64,000 nt of DNA from Pelagibacterium limicola (GTDB taxonomy: Bacteria > Pseudomonadota > Alphaproteobacteria > Rhizobiales > Devosiaceae): positions 248,001 through 312,000 of the forward strand of contig NZ_JADQDB010000002.1 of assembly GCF_015694405.1 (NCBI RefSeq). The letters are read 5' to 3'. The first letter of the stretch is position 1. Each line of letters begins with the position of its first letter. The position numbers and the translations under genes were made by a program. Shown here piece after piece: positions 46,518 to 55,658 of this stretch. The notes below the pieces were generated by a model. The model saw only the letters and a list, made by a program, of their open reading frames with translations, was not told the origin of the DNA and ran no database searches.

Positions 46518-47666
46518 CTAGGCGCCCAGCTTTGTCCAACGGCTGTCGTTTTTGGACGATTCCACCGAAGCCACGATGAACTCTACGCCTTCAACGCCGT
46601 CATCGAGGGTTGGCAACAAGGCCTCGAAATCCTGCCCTTCGCCCCGGATGACCGCCGCGAACTGGCTGTAGAGCGTCGCAAAGGCTTCGAGATACCCTTC
46701 AGGGTGTCCGGTCGGAATGCGGATGCCCATCGAGGCCGCAGGCGGCGCATCGATGGCTCCGCCGCGCGTTAGAAGCTGCCTGGGCTTTCCGAACTCGGTG
46801 TACCACATGTAGTTGGGATTTTCCTGCTGCCACTCGATGCCTGCTTTCTCGCCATAAATGCGCAGCTGCAGGCCGTTTTCCTTACCCACAGCAACCTGGC
46901 TCGCCCAGAGCATACCCTTGGCTCCGCCCTCAAAGCGCAGCATGATGTGGACGTTGTCGTCGAGCTTCCGGCCCGGCACGAAGGCCGTCAGATCGGCCGA
47001 GACAGCCTCGGTCTTGAGCCCAGTGACATAGCGCGCCAGGTTATAGGCGTGGGTCCCGATGTCCCCAATGGCCCCCCCTGCCCCGGATCGTGCTGGATCT
47101 GTACGCCAGGAGGCCTGCTTGTTGTCCGCATCCGCTTCGACCGCAAGCCAGTCCTGCGCATACTCCATTTGGACGACCCTGATCTTGCCCAAGGCGCCCG
47201 AAGCCACGAGCTCGCGCGCCTGCCGGATCAGCGGATAACCAGTGTAGTTGTGGGTCAGCAGGAACTTGGCATCATTCTTGGGCTTCACCGCCCTAAGGGC
47301 TCGCGCGTCCTCAAGCGTGGCCGTCAGTGGCTTGTCGCAGATGACGTGGATGCCGGCTTCGAGAAACGCCTTGGCGGGCGCAAAGTGCATGTGGTTTGGC
47401 GTGACGATCGAAACCGCCTCGATCCCGTCCTCGCGCGCAGCCTCCGCCCGGGCCATTTCGGCAAAATCGGTATAGATGCGGTCCTCGGCCAGCCCGAGAT
47501 TCTTTCCCGATTCCCTTGCCACCTCAGGCCGGGACGACAACGCCCCGGCAACGAGCTGATAGTCGCCGTCCAGCCGCGAGGCAATGCGGTGCACATAGCC
47601 GATGAAGGCACCGGTGCCGCCGCCGACCATACCGAGGCGAATGGGACGCTTTCCGTTTTCAGCCAT
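46518..47666 (-). CDS. Gfo/Idh/MocA-family sugar oxidoreductase (1)
   Basis: A 382-residue NAD(P)-dependent dehydrogenase. The Rossmann start is IRLGMVGGGTGAFIGYVHRIASRLDG; the substrate-site lysine is in CDKPLTATLED (D-K-P where many relatives have E-K-P). The C-terminal domain holds WRTDPARSGAGGAIGDIGTHAYNLARYVTG with the conserved Asp/His pair. Such enzymes oxidise hydroxyls of sugars, inositols or glycosides; the substrate here is unknown. ATG 47666. It lies 12 nt after a TIM-barrel isomerase gene in the same operon, and a second such pair occurs in the ABC operon at 49-51 kb. Confidence 0.93.
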   Translation of the reverse strand: MAENGKRPIRLGMVGGGTGAFIGYVHRIASRLDGDYQLVAGALSSRPEVARESGKNLGLAEDRIYTDFAEMARAEAAREDGIEAVSIVTPNHMHFAPAKAFLEAGIHVICDKPLTATLEDARALRAVKPKNDAKFLLTHNYTGYPLIRQARELVASGALGKIRVVQMEYAQDWLAVEADADNKQASWRTDPARSGAGGAIGDIGTHAYNLARYVTGLKTEAVSADLTAFVPGRKLDDNVHIMLRFEGGAKGMLWASQVAVGKENGLQLRIYGEKAGIEWQQENPNYMWYTEFGKPRQLLTRGGAIDAPPAASMGIRIPTGHPEGYLEAFATLYSQFAAVIRGEGQDFEALLPTLDDGVEGVEFIVASVESSKNDSRWTKLGA

Positions 47667-47678
47667 TGATTCGTCTCC

Positions 47679-48734
47679 TTAATCCAGCCCGAGCATCTTG
47701 CGGTTCGCGGCGGTGTCGGTGCCTGCATCGGCAAAATCGTCGAAGGCTTTCTCGGTAACGCGGATGATATGGTTCGCGATGAATTCCGCGCCTTCCCGCG
47801 CGCCGTCCTCGGGATGCTTCAAAGCGCATTCCCATTCGAGCACGGCCCAACCTTTGAAGTCGTACGCGGCGAGTTTGGAGAAGATCGCAGCGAAATCGAC
47901 CTGGCCGTCCCCAAGCGAACGGAACCGTCCGGCCCGCTGCACCCAGCCCTGATAGCCGCCGTAAACGCCCTGCCGCCCGGTCGGATTGAACTCGGCATCC
48001 TTGACGTGGAACATCCGGATGCGCTCGTGATAGATATCGATGTAATCGAGATAGTCGAGCTGCTGCAGCACGAAGTGGCTCGGATCGTAGAGCAGGTTCG
48101 CGCGGGCATGGTTGTTCACCCGCTCGAGGAACATCTCGTAGGTGATCCCGTCGTGCAGATCCTCACCGGGATGGATTTCGTAACAAACATCGACGCCTGC
48201 CTCGTCAAACGCATCGAGAATCGGCGTCCAGCGACGCGCAAGCTCATCGAAGGCTTCCTCGACCAGTCCGGCCGGCCGTTGCGGCCAGGGATAAATATAG
48301 GGCCAGGCTAACGCGCCCGAGAACGTCGCGTGCTCGGTCAGGCCCAGGTTCTGCGATGCCTTGGCCGCATATTTGAGCTGCTGCACGGCCCATTCCTGCC
48401 GAGCCTTGGGGCTGCCGCGCACTTCCGGCGCCGCAAAGCCGTCGAACGCCGTGTCGTAGGCCGGGTGCACAGCGACCAACTGCCCCTGGAGATGGGTCGA
48501 AAGCTCAGTAATCTCGATCCCGTGCTTTCCGGCAATACCCTTCAATTCATCGGCATAGGTCTTTGATTCGGCAGCTTTCTTGAGATCGATGAAACCCGGC
48601 ACCCAGCTGGGGACCTGGACGCCCTTGTAGCCGAGCCCCGCCGCCCACCTGCAGATGTTATCAAGCGTATCGAACGGTGCCGTGTCGCCTGCGAACTGGG
48701 CCAGGAATATCGCAGGTCCCTTGAGTGTGCGCAT
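47679..48734 (-). CDS. sugar phosphate isomerase/epimerase-family TIM-barrel protein (1)
   Basis: A 351-residue AP_endonuc_2/xylose-isomerase-like TIM barrel. Putative metal ligands: Glu in DVCYEIHPGEDLHD, Asp and His in LLYDPSHFVLQ, His in RMFHVKDAEF, and Glu in AVLEWECALKHPEDGAREGAEF. Members epimerise or isomerise keto-sugars or, in C- and O-deglycosylating systems, cleave 3-keto-glycosides. ATG 48734 has GGAGGAT just upstream. First gene of a two-gene operon with oxidoreductase 1; its promoter carries a LacI-type palindrome. Confidence 0.92.
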   Translation of the reverse strand: MRTLKGPAIFLAQFAGDTAPFDTLDNICRWAAGLGYKGVQVPSWVPGFIDLKKAAESKTYADELKGIAGKHGIEITELSTHLQGQLVAVHPAYDTAFDGFAAPEVRGSPKARQEWAVQQLKYAAKASQNLGLTEHATFSGALAWPYIYPWPQRPAGLVEEAFDELARRWTPILDAFDEAGVDVCYEIHPGEDLHDGITYEMFLERVNNHARANLLYDPSHFVLQQLDYLDYIDIYHERIRMFHVKDAEFNPTGRQGVYGGYQGWVQRAGRFRSLGDGQVDFAAIFSKLAAYDFKGWAVLEWECALKHPEDGAREGAEFIANHIIRVTEKAFDDFADAGTDTAANRKMLGLD

Positions 48735-48825
48735 GAAATCCTCCGTTTGCGCGCCGACTCGTCACGCCGCGAACTGCGGGCGCTGCATCGGCCGATCGTG
48801 TTTGCATCGCCTCCCCAGGCATACA

Positions 48826-48841
48826 TGACGTACGTGCGTCA
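48826..48841. promoter_or_regulatory. second dyad near the isomerase 1 promoter
   Basis: TGACG-TACGTG-CGTCA, an inverted repeat enclosing a TACGT(G) core, directly beside the LacI-type palindrome on its downstream side. It could bind a second regulator. Confidence 0.3.
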
Positions 48842-48842
48842 C

Positions 48843-48884
48843 GTGAAAACGTTTACACGATAATATGCCCATAGGTCGTGTCAA
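48843..48884 (-). promoter_or_regulatory. promoter with LacI-type operator for the isomerase 1/oxidoreductase 1 operon
   Basis: On the minus strand a perfect -35 TTGACA (48884-48879) is followed 16 bases later by TATCGT as a fair -10 (48862-48857). The palindrome GTGAAAACGTTTACAC (48843-48858), with the central CG typical of LacI/GalR sites, overlaps the -10 and start point, an arrangement suited to repression. Confidence 0.6.
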
Positions 48885-48955
48885 GACGTCCCTATCAGGG
48901 AATCTGGACATCTCTGCGCGTTCCTTGCGCGAGAGGAACGTCGTGGACAACCCAA

Positions 48956-48986
48956 AGTACCCGTCCTGATCGGTCAGAACGGGTAC
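48956..48986 (-). terminator. terminator of the ABC-transporter operon
   Basis: AGTACCCGT/ACGGGTACT form a 9-bp stem; CTGA/TCAG add an inner stem with a TCGG loop. It lies about 45 nt past the last gene of the minus-strand operon. The T-run after it is weak. Confidence 0.65.
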
Positions 48987-49031
48987 TCCAGGCTGCGGGG
49001 ACTCCCCCAAGCCCTGCGCAGCACAGTTATT

Positions 49032-50168
49032 TCAGACCAGAAGCGCCTGCGCCTCTACGGGACCGAGCGCATCGGGGCGTTCGCAGGTCGTCGTCAGCGT
49101 AATCGCCTTGCCTGTCTCGCCCGACTTGAGGATCGAGGTCATGATATCGACGCCGTGCAAGGTTGTCTCGAGCGAGCAGCGCGGTTTACGCCCTGCCTCG
49201 ATGGAGAGCATCATGTCTGCCAACCCCGCCGTGCGGTAATTGGCGAATGGCGGGCCGTTCGGGCGTTCCCAGTTCGGCACGCCCAGCGGATGCTTCCACG
49301 GATCGACCGTCTCGCGCACCCCGTTGCGCCGCGCCAGGATCAGCTCGCCGCCGAAGAAATTGGGATCGGGAACGAACAAGGTTCCGTTCGTGCCATAAAT
49401 CTCCATGTTCCGGTGGTCGTGCGCCTCGATGTCCCAGGAGGCGCTAAGCGTTACGAGAGCGCCGTTATGGAATTCCATTACCGCATGAATGGTCGTCGGC
49501 GTTTCGACGGTGACAAACTCGCCGCGGCGCGGCTCGCTGCTGATTTCGCGCTTGTCCCGGGCCATGCCCGACATCGCCGTCACGCGCTTGACCGGCCCGA
49601 TAAGGTTGATGAGATTGGCCACATAGTACGGTCCGATATCGAGGACAGGCCCCGCGCCCGGCTTGAAGAAAAAGTCGGGATTCGGATGCCAATGTTCGAG
49701 CCCGAAGTTCATCACATGGCATGTGCCCGAGACAATCCGCCCGATCGCGCCTTCATCGACCAGCGCACGCGCCTGCTGATGCGCCCCGCCCAGGAATGTA
49801 TCGGGCGCGCAACCAACCTGAACGTTCTGTGCCGCCGCGGCGGCGCGCAGATCCTCGCCCTCCTCGAGCGTCAGAACGAGCGGCTTTTCCGAATAGGCGT
49901 GCTTGCCGGCCGAAATGATGTCCTTGGTCACGCGGTAATGGGCATCGGGAATGGTGAGGTTGACGATGACGTCAACCTCGGAATTGGCCAGGAGTTCGTC
50001 CGGCGACTGGGCCGCAACGTTGAACTCCTCAGCCCGCGCCTTGGCGGCATCGGAGCTGATGTCGGCAATCGCCCTGACCTCGATCCCCTTAAAGAGCGGG
50101 GCGAGTTTGAGATAGGCGCTGGAAATATTGCCTGCGCCCATAATGCCGACGCCGTAGGTCTTGCTCAT
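49032..50168 (-). CDS. Gfo/Idh/MocA-family sugar oxidoreductase (2)
   Basis: 378 residues. The Rossmann fold starts YGVGIMGAGNISSAYLKLAPLFKGIEVRAIAD; the E-K-P motif is in HAYSEKPLVLTLEEG. The C-terminal domain includes HPNPDFFFKPGAGPVLDIGPYYVANLINLIGPV. Likely oxidises a sugar hydroxyl with NAD(P). It is only distantly like oxidoreductase 1, so the two probably act on different intermediates. ATG 50168 (MSKTYGVG) lies two bases past the stop of isomerase 2, implying coupling. Last gene of the six-gene ABC operon. Confidence 0.93.
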   Translation of the reverse strand: MSKTYGVGIMGAGNISSAYLKLAPLFKGIEVRAIADISSDAAKARAEEFNVAAQSPDELLANSEVDVIVNLTIPDAHYRVTKDIISAGKHAYSEKPLVLTLEEGEDLRAAAAAQNVQVGCAPDTFLGGAHQQARALVDEGAIGRIVSGTCHVMNFGLEHWHPNPDFFFKPGAGPVLDIGPYYVANLINLIGPVKRVTAMSGMARDKREISSEPRRGEFVTVETPTTIHAVMEFHNGALVTLSASWDIEAHDHRNMEIYGTNGTLFVPDPNFFGGELILARRNGVRETVDPWKHPLGVPNWERPNGPPFANYRTAGLADMMLSIEAGRKPRCSLETTLHGVDIMTSILKSGETGKAITLTTTCERPDALGPVEAQALLV

Positions 50169-50170
50169 TT

Positions 50171-50926
50171 TCAACTGTCCTGAAGCTTGGAGACGCTCGC
50201 GAACGAGCGCGATGCGAAACGTTCGAGATCGTTGGGATTGTCGTGTTCCATCACGTAATGCTGCGTGCGGGTATCCGACTTGATGGCGGCCATCAGCCCG
50301 GCCCAATCCATCGTACCATGGCCCACATCGGCCCAGCCGTCCTCGTCCTGCGCTTCCCCTTCGGGCGCGATGTCCTTGACGTGAACGTCGGAAATACGGC
50401 TGCCATGTACCGCGATCCACTTTATAGGATCGTGCTTGCCCCGGACGACCCAGGCGACATCCATCTCCCAGTCGATATCGGGTGCACCTTCGAGAAGGAT
50501 ATCCATCGGAAGACGTCCGCTGGCGGTCGGCCAGAATTCGAAGTGGTGGTTGTGCCAACCAAAGCCGAAGCCTTCGCCCTTATAGAACTTGCCCAGTTCG
50601 GCAAGCTCAGCGGCCAGCGCAATCCAGTCCTCTTCAGGCTGTTCCCAGCGTTCGCGCGGGATAGCCGGGCAATAAAGCGTCTTTATCCCCACCGTGCGGG
50701 CGATGCCCACCATCTTTTCGCGGTCGCGGAGCTGGTCGAGACCGAAATGGGAGGTCGGCATGGCGAGCCCGCGTTCATCGAGCTGCGCGCGCAAGGTGGC
50801 GGGGTCGGCAAAAAGGCCGCCAAACCCCTCGACATTGCGATATCCGAGACGGGCGAGCAACGCGAATACATCTTCAAGCGGGGGGAAGTTGCGCGCGCTA
50901 TAGAGCTGGAACGAAATAGAACTCAT
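50171..50926 (-). CDS. sugar phosphate isomerase/epimerase-family TIM-barrel protein (2)
   Basis: A 251-residue AP_endonuc_2-like TIM barrel, shorter than isomerase 1. ISFQLYSARNFPPLEDVFALLARLGYRNVEGFGG is the usual start. Probable metal ligands are His/Glu in FGWHNHHFEFWP, Asp in DWEMDVAWVVRGKHDP, His in ISDVHVKDIAPEG and Glu in QHYVMEHDNPND. The substrate is unknown. ATG 50926. It lies between the ABC ATPase gene (12 nt upstream) and oxidoreductase 2. Confidence 0.92.
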   Translation of the reverse strand: MSSISFQLYSARNFPPLEDVFALLARLGYRNVEGFGGLFADPATLRAQLDERGLAMPTSHFGLDQLRDREKMVGIARTVGIKTLYCPAIPRERWEQPEEDWIALAAELAELGKFYKGEGFGFGWHNHHFEFWPTASGRLPMDILLEGAPDIDWEMDVAWVVRGKHDPIKWIAVHGSRISDVHVKDIAPEGEAQDEDGWADVGHGTMDWAGLMAAIKSDTRTQHYVMEHDNPNDLERFASRSFASVSKLQDS

Positions 50927-50938
50927 GATTGACCCTCG

Positions 50939-52033
50939 TCAGATACGCTCACCGGATACGGCGTCGAACAGCGAAGCACGGGCCGGATCGAAGCCGAGAC
51001 GAATCTTCTGACCTTCCTCCAGGTTGAGCTCGCTATCGGCGCGGAAAGTGAAGGAATGGCCGCCCAGCGTGGTCCACGCAATCGTATCGGCGCCCATGGG
51101 CTCGACGATCTCGATCGTCGCGTCGAACGAGAACGGCTGGGTGTCCACACCATTGAGGACAATCACGTGCTCGGGCCGCACGCCGAGTACCGCCCTGCCC
51201 GACCAGTTCTCGTTGCCCGGCTCGAACCCGTAGCGCCCGACGGACACAGAGGTTCCGCCCACATCCACGGCACCGTTGGTCAACTCCCCTTCGAGGAAAT
51301 TCATTGAAGGAGAACCGATGAAGCCGGCGACAAACAGATTGACCGGCTTGTTATAGATGGCATGCGGCGTATCGAGCTGCTGGATGATGCCTTCCTTCAT
51401 GATCGCGATACGATCGGCCAGCGTCATGGCTTCGATCTGGTCGTGCGTGACATAGATCATCGTGTTCTTGAGCCGCTGATGCAGCCGCTTGATTTCCACG
51501 CGCAGGTCGGACCTAAGCTTGGCATCGAGGTTCGAGAGCGGCTCGTCGAACAGGAATACGTCCACGTCGCGCACCAGGGCCCGGCCAATGGCGACACGCT
51601 GCCGCTGGCCGCCCGAAAGCGCCATCGGCTTGCGGGCCAGCAAAGGCTCGATCTGGAGGATTTCCGCCGCCCGTGCCACGCGTTTCTGGATCTCCTCCTT
51701 GGGAAGACGGGCATTCTTGAGCCCGAACGACAGGTTCCCCTCCACCGACATCTGCGGATAGAGCGCATAGGACTGGAACACCATGCCGATGCCGCGATCC
51801 TTGGGCTCGTCCCAGGTCACGTTCTTGTTGTTGATGAAGATCTGCCCAGATGAAACGTCGAGAAGCCCGGCAATGCAGTTGAGAAGAGTGGACTTGCCGC
51901 AGCCGGATGGCCCGAGCAGGACAAGAAACTCGCCCTGATGGACATCGATATTGAGCTGCTTGAGCACTTCGACGGAACCAAAGTTCAGCGAAACGTCGTT
52001 GACCTTGACACTCGTAATTGCGTGATCAGTCAT
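50939..52033 (-). CDS. carbohydrate ABC transporter ATP-binding protein (UgpC/MsmK type)
   Basis: 364 residues. Walker A is LLGPSGCGKSTLLNCIAG, the signature is LSGGQRQRVAIGRAL, Walker B is VFLFDEPLSNLDAKLR, and the switch His is in IYVTHDQIEAMTLADRI. The C-terminal OB (TOBE) domain, from about residue 235, is typical of CUT1 sugar importers. It should energise the two permeases encoded just upstream. ATG 52033, six bases after the permease 2 stop. Confidence 0.96.
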   Translation of the reverse strand: MTDHAITSVKVNDVSLNFGSVEVLKQLNIDVHQGEFLVLLGPSGCGKSTLLNCIAGLLDVSSGQIFINNKNVTWDEPKDRGIGMVFQSYALYPQMSVEGNLSFGLKNARLPKEEIQKRVARAAEILQIEPLLARKPMALSGGQRQRVAIGRALVRDVDVFLFDEPLSNLDAKLRSDLRVEIKRLHQRLKNTMIYVTHDQIEAMTLADRIAIMKEGIIQQLDTPHAIYNKPVNLFVAGFIGSPSMNFLEGELTNGAVDVGGTSVSVGRYGFEPGNENWSGRAVLGVRPEHVIVLNGVDTQPFSFDATIEIVEPMGADTIAWTTLGGHSFTFRADSELNLEEGQKIRLGFDPARASLFDAVSGERI

Positions 52034-52039
52034 AATACA

Positions 52040-52981
52040 TCACCCCTTGACTGCGCCGGCCGCAATGCCACGAACGAAGAGCTTGCCAGACACAAAGTAG
52101 ACTATGAGCGGAACCAGCCCGGTGAGCACCGTTGCCGCCATGTTGACATTGTATTCCTTCACGCCCTGAACCGAGTTGACGATGTTATTGAGCTGCACCG
52201 TCATCGGGTAGTTTTCAGGACGCGTGTAGACGACGCCGAAGAGGAAGTCGTTCCAGATGCCGGTGATCTGCAGGATCATGGCCACCACGAAAATCGGCAA
52301 CGACATCGGCAGCATGATCTTGAAGTAGATCCCCCAGAACCCGGCGCCGTCCACGCGCGCCGCCTTGAACAATTCCTCGGGCAGCGAACTGAAATAATTG
52401 CGGAACAGAAGCGTCAGAATGGGCATCCCGAAGATCGTATGGACGATCACGAGGCCGGTGAGGGAGCCATAAAGACCCGCCTCGCGAAGCAGGATCACGA
52501 TCGGATAGAGCATCACCTGGTAGGGCACGAAAGCGCCGAAGATGAGGATCGTGAAGAAGATGTTGGCGCCCTTGAACCGCCAGTTGGCCAAGGCGTAACC
52601 GTTGACCGAAGCAATGGCGATGGAAACGATCACCGATGGGATGGTGATGCGGACCGAGTTCCAGAACCCCCGGCTCAGCCCCTCGCAGTTCAGCCCGGTA
52701 CAGGCTTCTGCCCAAGCCTTCACCCAAGGCTGGAACGTGATTTCGAGCGGCGGCGAGAAGATGTTGCCCATGCGGATCTCGGGCATGCCTTTCACCGACG
52801 TCATGATCATCACGTAGAGCGGCAACAGATAGTACACCGAGACGACGAACAGCGTCCCGTAGATCATGATGTTGCGCGGCGAGATGATCGGACGGGGCTT
52901 GGGTCCGTTCGGGCCGGTCAGAGCTTCTGCACGGGCCTGCGAGCCGGCCGACGCGCGGATATCGAGTGCGGTATCAGTCAC
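52040..52981 (-). CDS. carbohydrate ABC transporter permease (MalG type)
   Basis: A 313-residue inner-membrane subunit with about six transmembrane helices (first at MIYGTLFVVSVYYLLPLYVMIM). The EAA loop that docks on the ATPase is EELFKAARVDGAGFWGIYFKIMLPMSLP. The long N-terminal cytoplasmic tail (about 30 residues) is usual in this branch. The start GTG 52981 overlaps the end of permease 1 by eight bases, with GGAGG inside that gene at the right distance, so translation is coupled. Confidence 0.95.
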   Translation of the reverse strand: MTDTALDIRASAGSQARAEALTGPNGPKPRPIISPRNIMIYGTLFVVSVYYLLPLYVMIMTSVKGMPEIRMGNIFSPPLEITFQPWVKAWAEACTGLNCEGLSRGFWNSVRITIPSVIVSIAIASVNGYALANWRFKGANIFFTILIFGAFVPYQVMLYPIVILLREAGLYGSLTGLVIVHTIFGMPILTLLFRNYFSSLPEELFKAARVDGAGFWGIYFKIMLPMSLPIFVVAMILQITGIWNDFLFGVVYTRPENYPMTVQLNNIVNSVQGVKEYNVNMAATVLTGLVPLIVYFVSGKLFVRGIAAGAVKG

Positions 52982-53867
52982 GCTTCTTGCCTCCGAATTC
53001 GAGATAGGCCCAAGGGATGAGGACGATAAGCACCGTCAGCAGCATCATGGTGGAGCCGGCGAAGCCCTGGGCAAGGTTCTGGCGCAGGAAGAGCGAGTCA
53101 TAGACGTATTTCGCGGGTACTTCCGAAGCGATACCTGGGCCGCCGCTGGTTTGCGCAACCACGAGGTCGTATAGCCGCACGATACCCGAAGCGATCAGGA
53201 CAAGCGTGGTGATGAACACCGGACGCATCATCGGGATGATGATGAAAAGATAGGTCTTCCAGACCGGAATGCCGTCGACGCGAGAGGCCTTCCAGATTTC
53301 CTCGTCGATCCCGCGCAAGCCGGCGAGCATCAGGCACATCACGAGACCGGTCCCCTGCCACAGCCCCGCAATCAGCAGGCCGTAGAGCACGAGGCTCTGG
53401 TTATAGAGAGGATCGAAAACGAAATTTTCCCAGCCCCAGGACCGCACGACACTCTGAATCCCGAATTCGGGATTGAGAATCCATTGCCAGACAAGCCCGG
53501 TTACAATGAAGGAAAGCGCAAAGGGATAGAGGAAGATGGTTCGGAACGTATTCTCGAACCGCACTTTCTGGTCGAGAAACGCAGCGAGCACGAACCCGAT
53601 GACCAAAGAGAAGGTCAACGACAACGTGCCGTAGATCATGATGTTCTGGATCGATACGATCCAGCGCGACGATGACCACAGGCGTTCGTACTGGTCGAAG
53701 CCAACGAATTCCAGCCGCGGCAGCAACCGCGAGTTGGTAAATGAATAAACGACCGTCCACAATGTCGCGCCAGTAAAGATCACCACGGCCGTAAGGACCA
53801 TTGGTATCGATGCGATCTTGGCGTTCAGGTTGCGGAACAGCTGGTTTGGACGACCTGCCCGGTCCAT
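52974..53867 (-). CDS. carbohydrate ABC transporter permease (MalF type)
   Basis: 297 residues, six predicted transmembrane helices beginning with SIPMVLTAVVIFTGATLWTVVYSF. The EAA loop is DEEIWKASRVDGIPVWKTYLFIIIPMMRP. It pairs with the downstream MalG-type permease. ATG 53867 has GGAGAGG directly upstream; a GTG two codons earlier is less likely. It follows the binding-protein gene by 86 nt, a gap that may allow higher expression of the binding protein. Confidence 0.95.
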   Translation of the reverse strand: MDRAGRPNQLFRNLNAKIASIPMVLTAVVIFTGATLWTVVYSFTNSRLLPRLEFVGFDQYERLWSSSRWIVSIQNIMIYGTLSLTFSLVIGFVLAAFLDQKVRFENTFRTIFLYPFALSFIVTGLVWQWILNPEFGIQSVVRSWGWENFVFDPLYNQSLVLYGLLIAGLWQGTGLVMCLMLAGLRGIDEEIWKASRVDGIPVWKTYLFIIIPMMRPVFITTLVLIASGIVRLYDLVVAQTSGGPGIASEVPAKYVYDSLFLRQNLAQGFAGSTMMLLTVLIVLIPWAYLEFGGKKRD

Positions 53868-53953
53868 CGCCACCTCTCCCCGTCTACGATATTATTATGG
53901 GACAAGCGACCGGCTCCGCACTGCGGAGCCGGTCCCCTTGAAAATTGCCAGCG

Positions 53954-55186
53954 TTAGTCGGCTTGGGCAATGATCGCAGCGTAGCGACGCTGAGCGTCTT
54001 CGGCGCTGATCGAGTCGCTGGACCAGAACTCGGTCATCAGGTCTTCGATCTGACCCTGCGTATCAGGGGAAAGAGTCTGGTTGCCGTCGGGCAGGATGTT
54101 GCCACCGGCAAGGATTTCGAGACCCTTCTTCATGCAGTCGTTGGCCGCTTCAAGATCGACGTCGCCGCGGATCGGCAGCGAGCCCTTCTTGAGGTTGAAG
54201 GCGACCTGGACTTCAGGCGAAACCATGAGCGAGGCCAGAGCAAGCTGCGCAGCTTCCTTTTCCGGATCGTTCAGCTTGGGGAAGTAGAAGGCATCGCCGC
54301 CGGTCGAGATGATCTCGTTGACGCCGAGACCCGGCAGACAGCTGTAATCCTCACCGGCAACCTGACCAGCAACCTGGAATTCGCCCTGCGCCCAGTCACC
54401 CATGATCTGACCGCCGGCCTGGCCGGTGATCACCATGTTGGTGGCCTGGTTCCAATCCTGAACGTTCGAGTTCTTGCGGAACTCGCGGGCAGCCGCAGCG
54501 GCTTCGAACACGCGAGCGTATTCCTCGCCACCCGCAACATCGGCGTTCTTGTCGATGTTTACGGCTTCCCATGCCTCCGAACCGGCGATGGCGATCGCCA
54601 ACACACCGAAGGCGCCCGAAGACTGCCAGGGCTGGTTGCCCATCGCGAGCGGAATCTTGCCGGCAGCTTCAAGAGCTGGAGCAGCGGCGGCAAACTCGTC
54701 CCAGTTGGTCGGGACGGGGACACCTGCATCCTCGAATGCCTTATGGCTCAGCCAGAGCCATTGCCACGAGTGGATATTCACCGGCACGCAGTAAATGCGG
54801 CCATCCAGCGTGCACGAATCGAGCAGCGAGGTCGGATGGATGAAGTCCCGCCAGCCTTCGGCTTCAGCGACCTCGGTCAGGTCGAGCATCAGACCGGCTT
54901 CCACCAGCTCTTCTGCCTGACGGCCGTGGTTGAACTGGGTAGCACCCATCGGGTCGCCGCCGGTGATACGGCTGATCATCACGGGGCGGGCGGTGCCACC
55001 GCCGCCGGCGATCGCGCCGTCGATCCAGGTATAGCCGGCCTCTTCAAAGGCCCTGGCGAATTCGGCGACGGCAGCGGCTTCACCGCCGGAGGTCCACCAA
55101 TGCGTGACTTCGAGCTCGGTCGCATGGATGGCGGTCGTGCCCATAAGAGCAGCTGCGAAGGTCGCAGCCACAGCAAATTTCTTCAT
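53954..55186 (-). CDS. carbohydrate ABC transporter substrate-binding protein
   Basis: A 410-residue periplasmic cluster-B sugar-binding protein. Signal peptide MKKFAVAATFAAALMGTTAIHA, then TELEVTHWWTSGGEAAAVAEFARAFEEAGYTWIDGAIAGGGGTARPVM, the start seen in GtsA-like glucose/mannose and related binders. Conserved middle parts are IYCVPVNIHSWQWLWLSHKAFEDAGVPVPTNWDEF and IMGDWAQGEFQ. Many Trp residues suit a sugar ligand, whose identity cannot be read from sequence. ATG 55186 follows GGAGGAA. First gene of the operon, behind two LacI-type palindromes. Confidence 0.95.
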   Translation of the reverse strand: MKKFAVAATFAAALMGTTAIHATELEVTHWWTSGGEAAAVAEFARAFEEAGYTWIDGAIAGGGGTARPVMISRITGGDPMGATQFNHGRQAEELVEAGLMLDLTEVAEAEGWRDFIHPTSLLDSCTLDGRIYCVPVNIHSWQWLWLSHKAFEDAGVPVPTNWDEFAAAAPALEAAGKIPLAMGNQPWQSSGAFGVLAIAIAGSEAWEAVNIDKNADVAGGEEYARVFEAAAAAREFRKNSNVQDWNQATNMVITGQAGGQIMGDWAQGEFQVAGQVAGEDYSCLPGLGVNEIISTGGDAFYFPKLNDPEKEAAQLALASLMVSPEVQVAFNLKKGSLPIRGDVDLEAANDCMKKGLEILAGGNILPDGNQTLSPDTQGQIEDLMTEFWSSDSISAEDAQRRYAAIIAQAD

Positions 55187-55290
55187 GGAATATTCCTCCC
55201 AAAGAGTTGTCCAAGGAGACCCGAAGCCCCCTTCTCCTCCATCCCCGGCCCTCGGCGTCCCGTATTGACGCTCCTCCAAGGTTCCAGAAA

Positions 55291-55304
55291 TGTAATCGAT
55301 TACA
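55291..55304. promoter_or_regulatory. LacI-type operator O2 of the ABC operon
   Basis: TGTAATCGATTACA is a perfect 14-bp palindrome with the central CG of LacI/GalR operators. Its centre is 34 bp downstream of the other palindrome (toward the gene), in the 5' untranslated region. Confidence 0.65.
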
Positions 55305-55324
55305 ATTCCTACGATCCGTATGGA

Positions 55325-55370
55325 TGAAATCGATTTCAAGACCATCCAACAAACGGACAAGCCCTGTCAA
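55325..55370 (-). promoter_or_regulatory. promoter and LacI-type operator O1 of the ABC operon
   Basis: A perfect -35 TTGACA lies at 55370-55365 on the minus strand. The perfect palindrome TGAAATCGATTTCA (55325-55338) falls at the expected start point. The -10 (GATGGT, 55346-55341) is poor, which may mean help from an activator. The rest of 55187-55581 shows no gene. Confidence 0.6.
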
Positions 55371-55581: not shown

Positions 55582-55658
55582 GGCCCCGTAGCTCAGCCGG
55601 ATAGAGCAGTAGCCTTCTAAGCTATTGGTCGCAGGTTCGAATCCTGCCGGGGTCGCCA
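55582..55658 (+). tRNA. tRNA-Arg (anticodon TCT)
   Basis: Complete cloverleaf: acceptor GGCCCCG/CGGGGTC (one G-T pair), D arm with GCTCAGCCGGATAGAGC, anticodon stem GTAGC/GCTAT with loop CTTCTAA (anticodon TCT, reading AGA), T arm GCAGG-TTCGAAT-CCTGC, discriminator G and encoded CCA at 55656-55658. Confidence 0.97.

Follow-up and report, generated by a model that had tools for sequence, protein, structure and literature searches.

A predicted importer-coupled cassette for beta-glycoside breakdown without a hydrolase in Pelagibacterium limicola

Results and Discussion

We analyzed a stretch of 64,000 nucleotides from Pelagibacterium limicola (the window; contig NZ_JADQDB010000002.1, positions 248,001 to 312,000, numbered from its own first base below) and identified eight minus-strand genes, spanning 55186-46518, for an ATP-binding cassette (ABC) importer and two pairs of a triosephosphate isomerase (TIM)-barrel protein with a Gfo/Idh/MocA protein. 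This cassette probably deglycosylates an imported beta-glycoside by oxidation, elimination, hydration and reduction, without a hydrolase. The core of this reading, an oxidative route that cleaves a 3-keto glycoside without a classical hydrolase, was proposed in a first-pass annotation made from the sequence. It is now well supported by the identity of one TIM barrel to a hydratase of known structure (PDB 8ro4), and by the active-site residues and fold ranking that ally the other with the eliminase AtOGE.

The front operon encodes a solute-binding protein (P0005; 53954..55186; Pfam SBP_bac_1), two permeases (P0007, 52974..53873, and P0008, 52040..52981; both BPD_transp_1), a UgpC/MalK-type ATPase (P0006; 50939..52033; 440 bits to the NCBIfam UgpC model, cut-off 432), a TIM barrel (P0003; 50171..50926) and a Gfo protein (P0004; 49032..50168). 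The back operon encodes a TIM barrel (P0002; 47679..48734) and a Gfo protein (P0001; 46518..47666). Pfam confirmed the expected family of each protein, and the gene row first described, with its second, dissimilar pair, stands for all eight genes; the span given for it also takes in the promoter stretch. The two Gfo proteins share 31% identity over 82 residues. Genes within an operon are at most 12 bases apart or overlap slightly, except for 80 bases 3' of the binding-protein gene, and the gap between the operons, from the P0004 gene to the P0002 gene, is 297 bases. Pfam identified no glycosidase, kinase, aldolase or LacI protein among the eight, in keeping with the earlier account of the locus, although GH1 and GH43 (glycoside hydrolase families 1 and 43) genes are present elsewhere in the genome. 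All 20 LacI genes that we found in the genome lie outside the window. The ThuA domain, which we took as the sign of trehalose utilization (thu), was also missing from the Pfam matches of the eight proteins.

Predicted enzymes

A pathway of the AtOGE type needs an eliminase with the AtOGE active site and a 2-hydroxy-3-keto-glucal hydratase, and we found a counterpart of each. Over 350 residues, P0002 shares 77% identity with the 2-hydroxy-3-keto-glucal hydratase AtHYD of Agrobacterium tumefaciens (8ro4), and on this homology is assigned as a 2-hydroxy-3-keto-glycal hydratase. P0003 is predicted, from its homology to AtOGE and its modeled fold, to be a metal-dependent 3-keto-beta-glycoside 1,2-lyase (beta-eliminase). 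All eight residues reported for AtOGE as metal, alternative metal or catalytic residues (E39, H66, H132, H134, E161, D163, H189 and E233; PMC10628242) are kept in P0003 as E33, H60, H125, H127, E154, D156, H182 and E227. Seven of these are invariant in 23 of 23 alignment rows and E154 is present in 22; the HNH motif, whose His125 matches AtOGE, is likewise invariant.

In a Foldseek search with the AlphaFold model of P0003 (predicted local distance difference test score, pLDDT, 91.7), the lyases 8tcr, 8tcd and 8tct came out on top (E 1.8e-16 to 4.0e-15). AtOGE (8bvk) was matched at 2.2e-15, and three 3-keto-beta-glucopyranoside-1,2-lyase entries and AtOGE fall within the first nine rows. Interleaved with the lyases are two uncharacterized Parabacteroides proteins (3obe and 3l23; 4.0e-15 and 1.8e-14). 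Among the matches listed, the remaining rows start at 1.0e-10, named 3-epimerases at 1.6e-9 and inosose dehydratases at 3.5e-9. P0003 could be an epimerase that acts with P0004 and P0001 to turn a sugar or glycoside into its epimer via a keto form, as might be expected for a TIM barrel of the isomerase/epimerase superfamily beside a dehydrogenase, and epimerases do appear lower in the fold list. We consider this improbable, given the lead of the lyases over the epimerases (at least four orders of magnitude among the matches listed), the invariant HNH motif with His125, and the hydratase homologue that lies within 6 kb in 102 of the 113 genomes with both genes (below).

Inositol or inosose catabolism, another substrate class raised in the first pass, has in its favor a weak IolE/IolG similarity of all four enzymes and the scyllo-inositol dehydrogenase that is the top fold match of P0004. 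However, P0002 and P0003 reach 65 and 40 bits where the IolE cut-off is 290, and the genome has its own IolE at C6:317818 (353 bits). We rejected this reading as extremely improbable.

P0004 is likely an NAD-dependent glycoside 3-dehydrogenase, a role suggested by its Pfam family, gene context and fold. Its best solved relative in a PDB search is a scyllo-inositol dehydrogenase (about 70 bits), and its match to DgpA is 56 bits. The model of P0004 (pLDDT 90.7) is nearest, at 21-24% identity, to scyllo-inositol dehydrogenase, an oxidoreductase of K. pneumoniae, DgpA1 and levoglucosan dehydrogenase. In each of two overlapping alignments, all 27 rows keep Lys97, Asp179 and Tyr183 of P0004 (numbered from two residues before the ATG taken as start).

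The same four enzymes could form an anhydrosugar route, with P0004 as levoglucosan dehydrogenase, P0003 as LgdB1, P0002 as LgdB2 and P0001 as LgdC. The number and kinds of enzymes, the ABC importer and LacI are as in Bacillus smithii, and the fold matches of P0004 include levoglucosan dehydrogenase. Yet P0004 (63.7 bits) and P0001 (126 bits) score far below the 650-bit cut-off of the NCBIfam levoglucosan dehydrogenase model, so that membership of this family is not supported for either. In addition, the high identity of P0002 is to the hydratase that A. tumefaciens uses on glucosides, in a comparison that did not directly include LgdB1, LgdB2 and LgdC. An anhydrosugar route seems very unlikely.

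P0001 fits the last step as a predicted NADH-dependent 3-keto-sugar reductase. It is 59% identical to a Sinorhizobium meliloti protein (3v5n), and 12 bases separate its gene from that of the hydratase upstream. In both published pathways, those of A. tumefaciens and B. smithii, the hydratase works together with a Gfo reductase (PMC10628242, PMC7676230).

From the protein families, homology, active-site conservation, gene linkage and operator-like motifs observed, we infer the following reactions in P. limicola. The dedicated importer would bring a beta-glycoside into the cytoplasm, where P0004 would oxidize the C3 hydroxyl with NAD+. P0003, with its metal, would abstract H2 and eliminate the aglycone to leave a 2-hydroxy-3-keto-glycal, to which P0002 would add water, giving the free 3-keto sugar. 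P0001 would then reduce this to the normal sugar with NADH. As P0004 would use NAD+ and P0001 NADH, the cycle would be redox neutral, and its sum would be net hydrolysis. P0002 and P0001 would form a finishing module with its own promoter.

Several points weigh against this reading. The identity of P0003 to AtOGE is just 31%, and the nearest PDB relative of P0001 has no function assigned in its record, where it is named merely "Oxidoreductase". P0004 has no close characterized relative, so that its reaction is deduced from context, and its Tyr183 stands at what we take to be the position of the catalytic His in inositol- and levoglucosan-dehydrogenase-like enzymes. The A. tumefaciens operon oxidizes its substrate via a flavoprotein, GlycDH, and none is present in this cassette: Pfam found no match to the GMC family among the eight proteins. 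Two GMC proteins are encoded elsewhere in the genome, one of them choline-dehydrogenase-like, yet below the cut-off of that model. The other (C4:489473; 99 bits to fructose dehydrogenase), on the same contig as the cassette, is flanked by a Gluconate_2-dh3 gene upstream and a cytochrome c gene downstream. This FAD-dependent dehydrogenase, its small subunit and the cytochrome might together be an alternative source of the 3-keto glycoside. Finally, within the stretches fetched from other genomes (below), the hydratase is missing from 4 of 28 loci and the reductase from 9 (one locus, L051, stops at a contig end).

The row of Gluconate_2-dh3, GMC dehydrogenase and cytochrome c genes (C4:487564-491200; loci L081 and L041) is also a possible three-subunit sugar dehydrogenase in its own right.

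Conservation and linkage

One contig scan with P0003 yielded 28 loci up to about 20 kb long, in which genes more than 10 kb away are out of view. A P0004 homologue follows the eliminase in all 28 (after the second eliminase in L051 and L052), and both hydratase and reductase are present in 18 loci. Taken singly, the hydratase is present in 24 and the reductase in 19, and 17 loci have all eight genes. Because the same gene order recurs in other genomes, the arrangement is not due to chance.

In L056 and L066 the P0004 homologue was matched in two pieces and is possibly frameshifted. Two Devosia loci have tandem eliminase genes before one dehydrogenase gene (L051, 10001-12818; L052, 4242-6957), with products 60% and 45% identical to P0003. 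A protein of about 800 residues from glycoside hydrolase family 2 (GH2), with a Pfam mannosidase-type Ig fold, is encoded between the ATPase and eliminase genes of L059 (7387-9867) and L065 (7598-9988), and L071 has a partial match to it. The P. limicola GH2 protein (C5:409101-411578) is 46% identical, and a site like operator A (see below) lies about 10 codons into its gene.

We then considered 136 genomes of the family of the window, which we took as Devosiaceae (the nearest named loci are from Pelagibacterium and Devosia). Homologues of P0003 were identified in 121 (at 1e-30), of P0002 in 118 (1e-60) and of P0004 in 123 (1e-80). Both P0003 and P0002 are encoded in 113 genomes, and lie at most 6 kb apart in 102 of these, a count based mostly on one place per genome. 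Outside the family, the two halves are only 24-75 bases apart in six loci (L057, L062-L064, L067 and L069), three of them from Marinomonas. A Paracoccus plasmid has the whole cassette in a row, and on Agrobacterium and Phaeobacter plasmids the hydratase and reductase genes are divergent from those of the importer, next to a single LacI gene. The annotated Gfo gene before the ATPase gene in Rhizobium beringeri gave no P0004 match at 1e-10.

It could be argued that two unrelated pathways are neighbors here, with the front operon making something else and the hydratase-reductase operon serving only xylose-linked metabolism. The operators of the two operons differ and a strong hairpin lies between them; the halves are far apart within the same record in S. 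meliloti and Phyllobacterium, and in 11 of the 113 genomes they are separated by more than 6 kb or lie on separate contigs. Against this stand the 6-kb linkage in the other genomes, the nearly fused halves in six loci outside the family, and the plasmid arrangements, in a single row or divergent next to one LacI gene, and we find this alternative very improbable. A lack of co-regulation had been held to speak against a single route, and what we see is mixed: the operators differ in P. limicola, but the halves are nearly fused or adjacent in many relatives. Given the linkage within 6 kb and the near-fused or adjacent halves, the two-operon layout most plausibly represents a single system whose back end is detachable.

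The presence of both eliminase and hydratase in 113 of 136 genomes suggests that glycoside breakdown by oxidation and elimination, a route discovered only recently, is a standard importer-coupled cassette across this whole bacterial family, and it extends to Marinomonas. The cassette also offers likely functions for proteins that public records describe simply as sugar phosphate isomerase/epimerase or Gfo/Idh/MocA oxidoreductase.

Control of the front operon

The first pass made no mention of regulatory sites. Two LacI-type operators precede the binding-protein gene: operator A1, the palindrome TGTAATCGATTACA (55291..55304), and operator A2 (55325..55338), 34 bases from A1. No match to their common form, TGNAATCGATTNCA, arose when the window was shuffled 100 times. 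Of the 25 related loci that include this stretch, 17 carry such a site ahead of the binding-protein gene. Three loci from Marinomonas have a different LacI-like site, and the other five, each with GH43 or GH2 genes, have none. The operators are in tandem in 11 of 11 Pelagibacterium/Devosia-type loci with the stretch, at a spacing of 34 bases in nine, 33 in L044 and 32 in L051. LacI genes adjoin the importer in L050, L053, L056 and L064 (4 of 10 proteins tested), and all six annotated plasmid records have a LacI gene beside it. The importer, P0003 and P0004 are probably under one LacI-type control, exerted by a regulator that would bind these sites. A tRNA-Arg gene (anticodon TCT; 55582-55658, plus strand) borders the cassette promoter.

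Across the genome, operator A was found 11 times at up to two mismatches, against one site for the reversed pattern. The sole other exact copy is in the promoter of a gene at C6:128805, placed in GH1 on part of the protein, where its end lies 12 bases upstream of the earliest possible start codon and 27 upstream of the more probable ATG. Copies with one mismatch (C4:568345, C5:213368 and C5:411536) are inside long open frames, and only the GH1 copy is positioned as in a promoter. We sought the owner of operator A among the LacI proteins of P. limicola, but the importer-adjacent LacI of Devosia is at most 41% identical to any of them and we name no owner.

Control of the back operon and a probable xylose link

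Upstream of the hydratase gene we identified a sigma-70-like promoter on the minus strand (TTGACA-16-TATCGT, 48857..48884; such consensus matches number 4 in the region and 2.5 in shuffles), LacI-type operator B (TGTAAACGTTTTCA on the minus strand; 48844..48857) and the palindrome TGACGCACGTACGTCA (minus strand; 48826..48841). A strong minus-strand hairpin with a 23-pair stem (48947..48996; -49.2 kcal/mol for a 91-nt stretch, z -4.6) lies between the operons and may block transcription. By eye, long hairpins of other sequence are present in the inter-operon gaps of L042-L044, L047 and L048. Operator B has its only exact genomic copy here, and at up to two mismatches its sites (8 and 8) do not clearly outnumber those of the reversed pattern (9 and 3). 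The same site is present in L042, L047 and L048, with near-copies in L043 and L044.

The palindrome at 48826 has a near-copy, two letters off, between the LacI and xylulokinase genes of a locus that encodes LacI, xylulokinase, xylose isomerase and GH43, in which XylB and XylA exceed their NCBIfam cut-offs and the LacI gene lies at C8:302144-303187. The pattern TGACGTACGTACGTCA occurs at three sites in the genome with at most one mismatch, namely at 48826 and two others, and only these three were used, as at up to three mismatches the palindrome is barely above the reversed control (8 vs 6 per strand). At the third site, C7:398164, no sugar gene was recognized beside it. The palindrome precedes the hydratase gene in 10 of 13 Devosiaceae-type hydratase loci, compared with 0.4 hits per 28 simply shuffled loci. 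It was found near the hydratase gene in none of the 15 other hydratase loci, and not in the front operon.

We examined 6 of 171 plasmid records with relatives of the xyl LacI. In three (two near-identical Sinorhizobium records and one from Shinella), a LacI gene (45-46% identity) precedes xylB-xylA, with TGATTTACGTACATCA just upstream, and in the two Sinorhizobium records the hydratase gene follows xylB-xylA; the row in S. meliloti is LacI, xylB, xylA, hydratase (78%), Gfo (58% to P0001) and GH1. In Qingshengfaniella and Phyllobacterium, the LacI gene (42-43%) is directly before the hydratase and reductase genes, with no palindrome at the pattern used. The sixth record, from Bosea, has neither arrangement. 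In Paracoccus, xylA is next to the reductase gene, on the other strand. A palindrome resembling that of the LacI-xylB-xylA locus and, in a relative, linkage of the hydratase gene to xylBA both point to a xylose regulon. Based on the similar palindromes and the LacI-xylBA-hydratase linkage in plasmids, we infer that the finishing pair belongs to the xylose regulon. The back end is most likely controlled by the LacI regulator of the xylose genes, which would bind the palindrome.

Substrate

The substrate may be beta-glucosides or beta-xylosides. Glucosides are favored by the known activity of AtOGE and the preliminary activity of AtHYD (PMC10628242), and by a binding protein that appears to be of the glucose type. 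P0005 matches 5xpj (252 bits), 5dvf (250 bits) and, at 108 bits, 2b3b, a "glucose-binding protein".

Alternatively, the cassette could be a non-hydrolytic beta-xylosidase route, or act on both xylosides and glucosides, wired into xylose catabolism. In this variant, P0004 would form a 3-keto-xyloside, P0003 would eliminate its aglycone to give 2-hydroxy-3-keto-xylal, and P0002 and P0001 would yield xylose for XylA and XylB, with a XylR-like LacI regulator switching on the finishing pair together with xylBA. The variant is suggested by the xyl-type palindrome, the S. meliloti gene row, the adjacency of LacI and hydratase genes, xylA in Paracoccus, and loci with GH43 genes (7 of 34 cassette loci; the three products compared are 58-62% identical to the GH43 of the P. 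limicola xyl operon). Set against it are the lack of the palindrome near the hydratase gene in the 15 loci outside the Devosiaceae-type set and in the front operon, and the characterized relatives, which act on glucosides (PMC10628242). We regard xylosides as a rather doubtful, though appreciable, possibility. With this proposed tie between the finishing pair and xylose use, the question of the substrate can be put to a direct test.

Importer and its apparent replacement

The four P. limicola enzymes are nearest to those of P. sediminicola (84-94% identity), whereas the binding protein and permeases are only 53-67% identical to their counterparts there, and are better matched by loci of other families (69-75% for the binding protein). 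In trees, the binding protein and permease 2 each fall in a group of 10 rows without other Devosiaceae (support 99/97 each), while P0003 pairs with P. sediminicola (support 100/99). A constraint that places the P. limicola proteins in the Devosiaceae importer clade was rejected by the approximately unbiased test for the binding protein (p-AU 0.0009) and permease 1 (p-AU 0.0089), a test weakened by the choice of this clade after the first trees. The ATPase tree did not resolve the placement of P. limicola. Comparing the DNA with that of P. sediminicola produced a single long match of 75%, in which no borders of a swap were located. The binding protein and both permeases (55186-52040, compared with L042) thus appear to have been swapped in place for the versions of another lineage, with the enzymes and operators unchanged. 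Importer genes of P. lentulum and D. epidermidihirudinis also fall outside the Devosiaceae importer clade. It seems that the intake part changes while the chemistry stays.

Comparison with known systems

A literature search returned, among the matches listed, no paper on the cassette in Devosia or Pelagibacterium. The route had first been called uncharacterized, which is too broad: elimination and hydration are known in A. tumefaciens (PMC10628242, 8ro4) and the four-step logic in B. smithii (PMC7676230). The features that appear new are the Gfo protein in place of the A. tumefaciens flavoprotein, the tandem LacI-type operators on the front operon, the palindrome that the hydratase-reductase operon has in common with a LacI-xylB-xylA-GH43 locus, and importer parts that look swapped.

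The lyases 8tcr, 8tcd and 8tct, AL1 from Alistipes and BT1 from Bacteroides thetaiotaomicron, are the best fold matches for P0003 among those listed, at about 20% identity. Their system reportedly has other partner enzymes.

In DgpA with DgpB/C, a Gfo dehydrogenase is likewise followed by a metal-dependent TIM-barrel lyase. The C-glycoside lyases have Glu as a metal ligand where the AtOGE type has His (PMC10628242), and unlike CGE and DgpB/C, P0003 has His125 at this position, invariant in all 23 rows, and no gene for a second subunit is among the eight.

The lgd genes of B. smithii (lgdA, lgdB1, lgdB2 and lgdC) encode the same four-step order for levoglucosan (PMC7676230, PMC10066097), also with two Gfo-type enzymes, two TIM barrels and nearby LacI and ABC importer genes; the scores of P0004 and P0001 against the levoglucosan dehydrogenase model, given above, set the P. 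limicola cassette apart from it. Another close likeness is to the breakdown of O-beta-glucosides in A. tumefaciens by C3 oxidation, beta-elimination, hydration and reduction (PMC10628242), carried out by GlycDH, AtOGE, AtHYD and a Gfo enzyme. The two share the eliminase site residues and a hydratase at 77% identity, with 31% identity between the eliminases, and in P. limicola a Gfo protein is likewise predicted for the reduction. The P. limicola cassette has a dedicated ABC importer; the text of PMC10628242 does not use the term "ABC transporter", which is no proof that A. tumefaciens lacks one. The first step in A. tumefaciens is taken by the flavoprotein GlycDH (PMC10628242), whereas P. limicola has a Gfo/Idh protein in that place, and we propose an NAD-dependent first enzyme instead of a flavoprotein.

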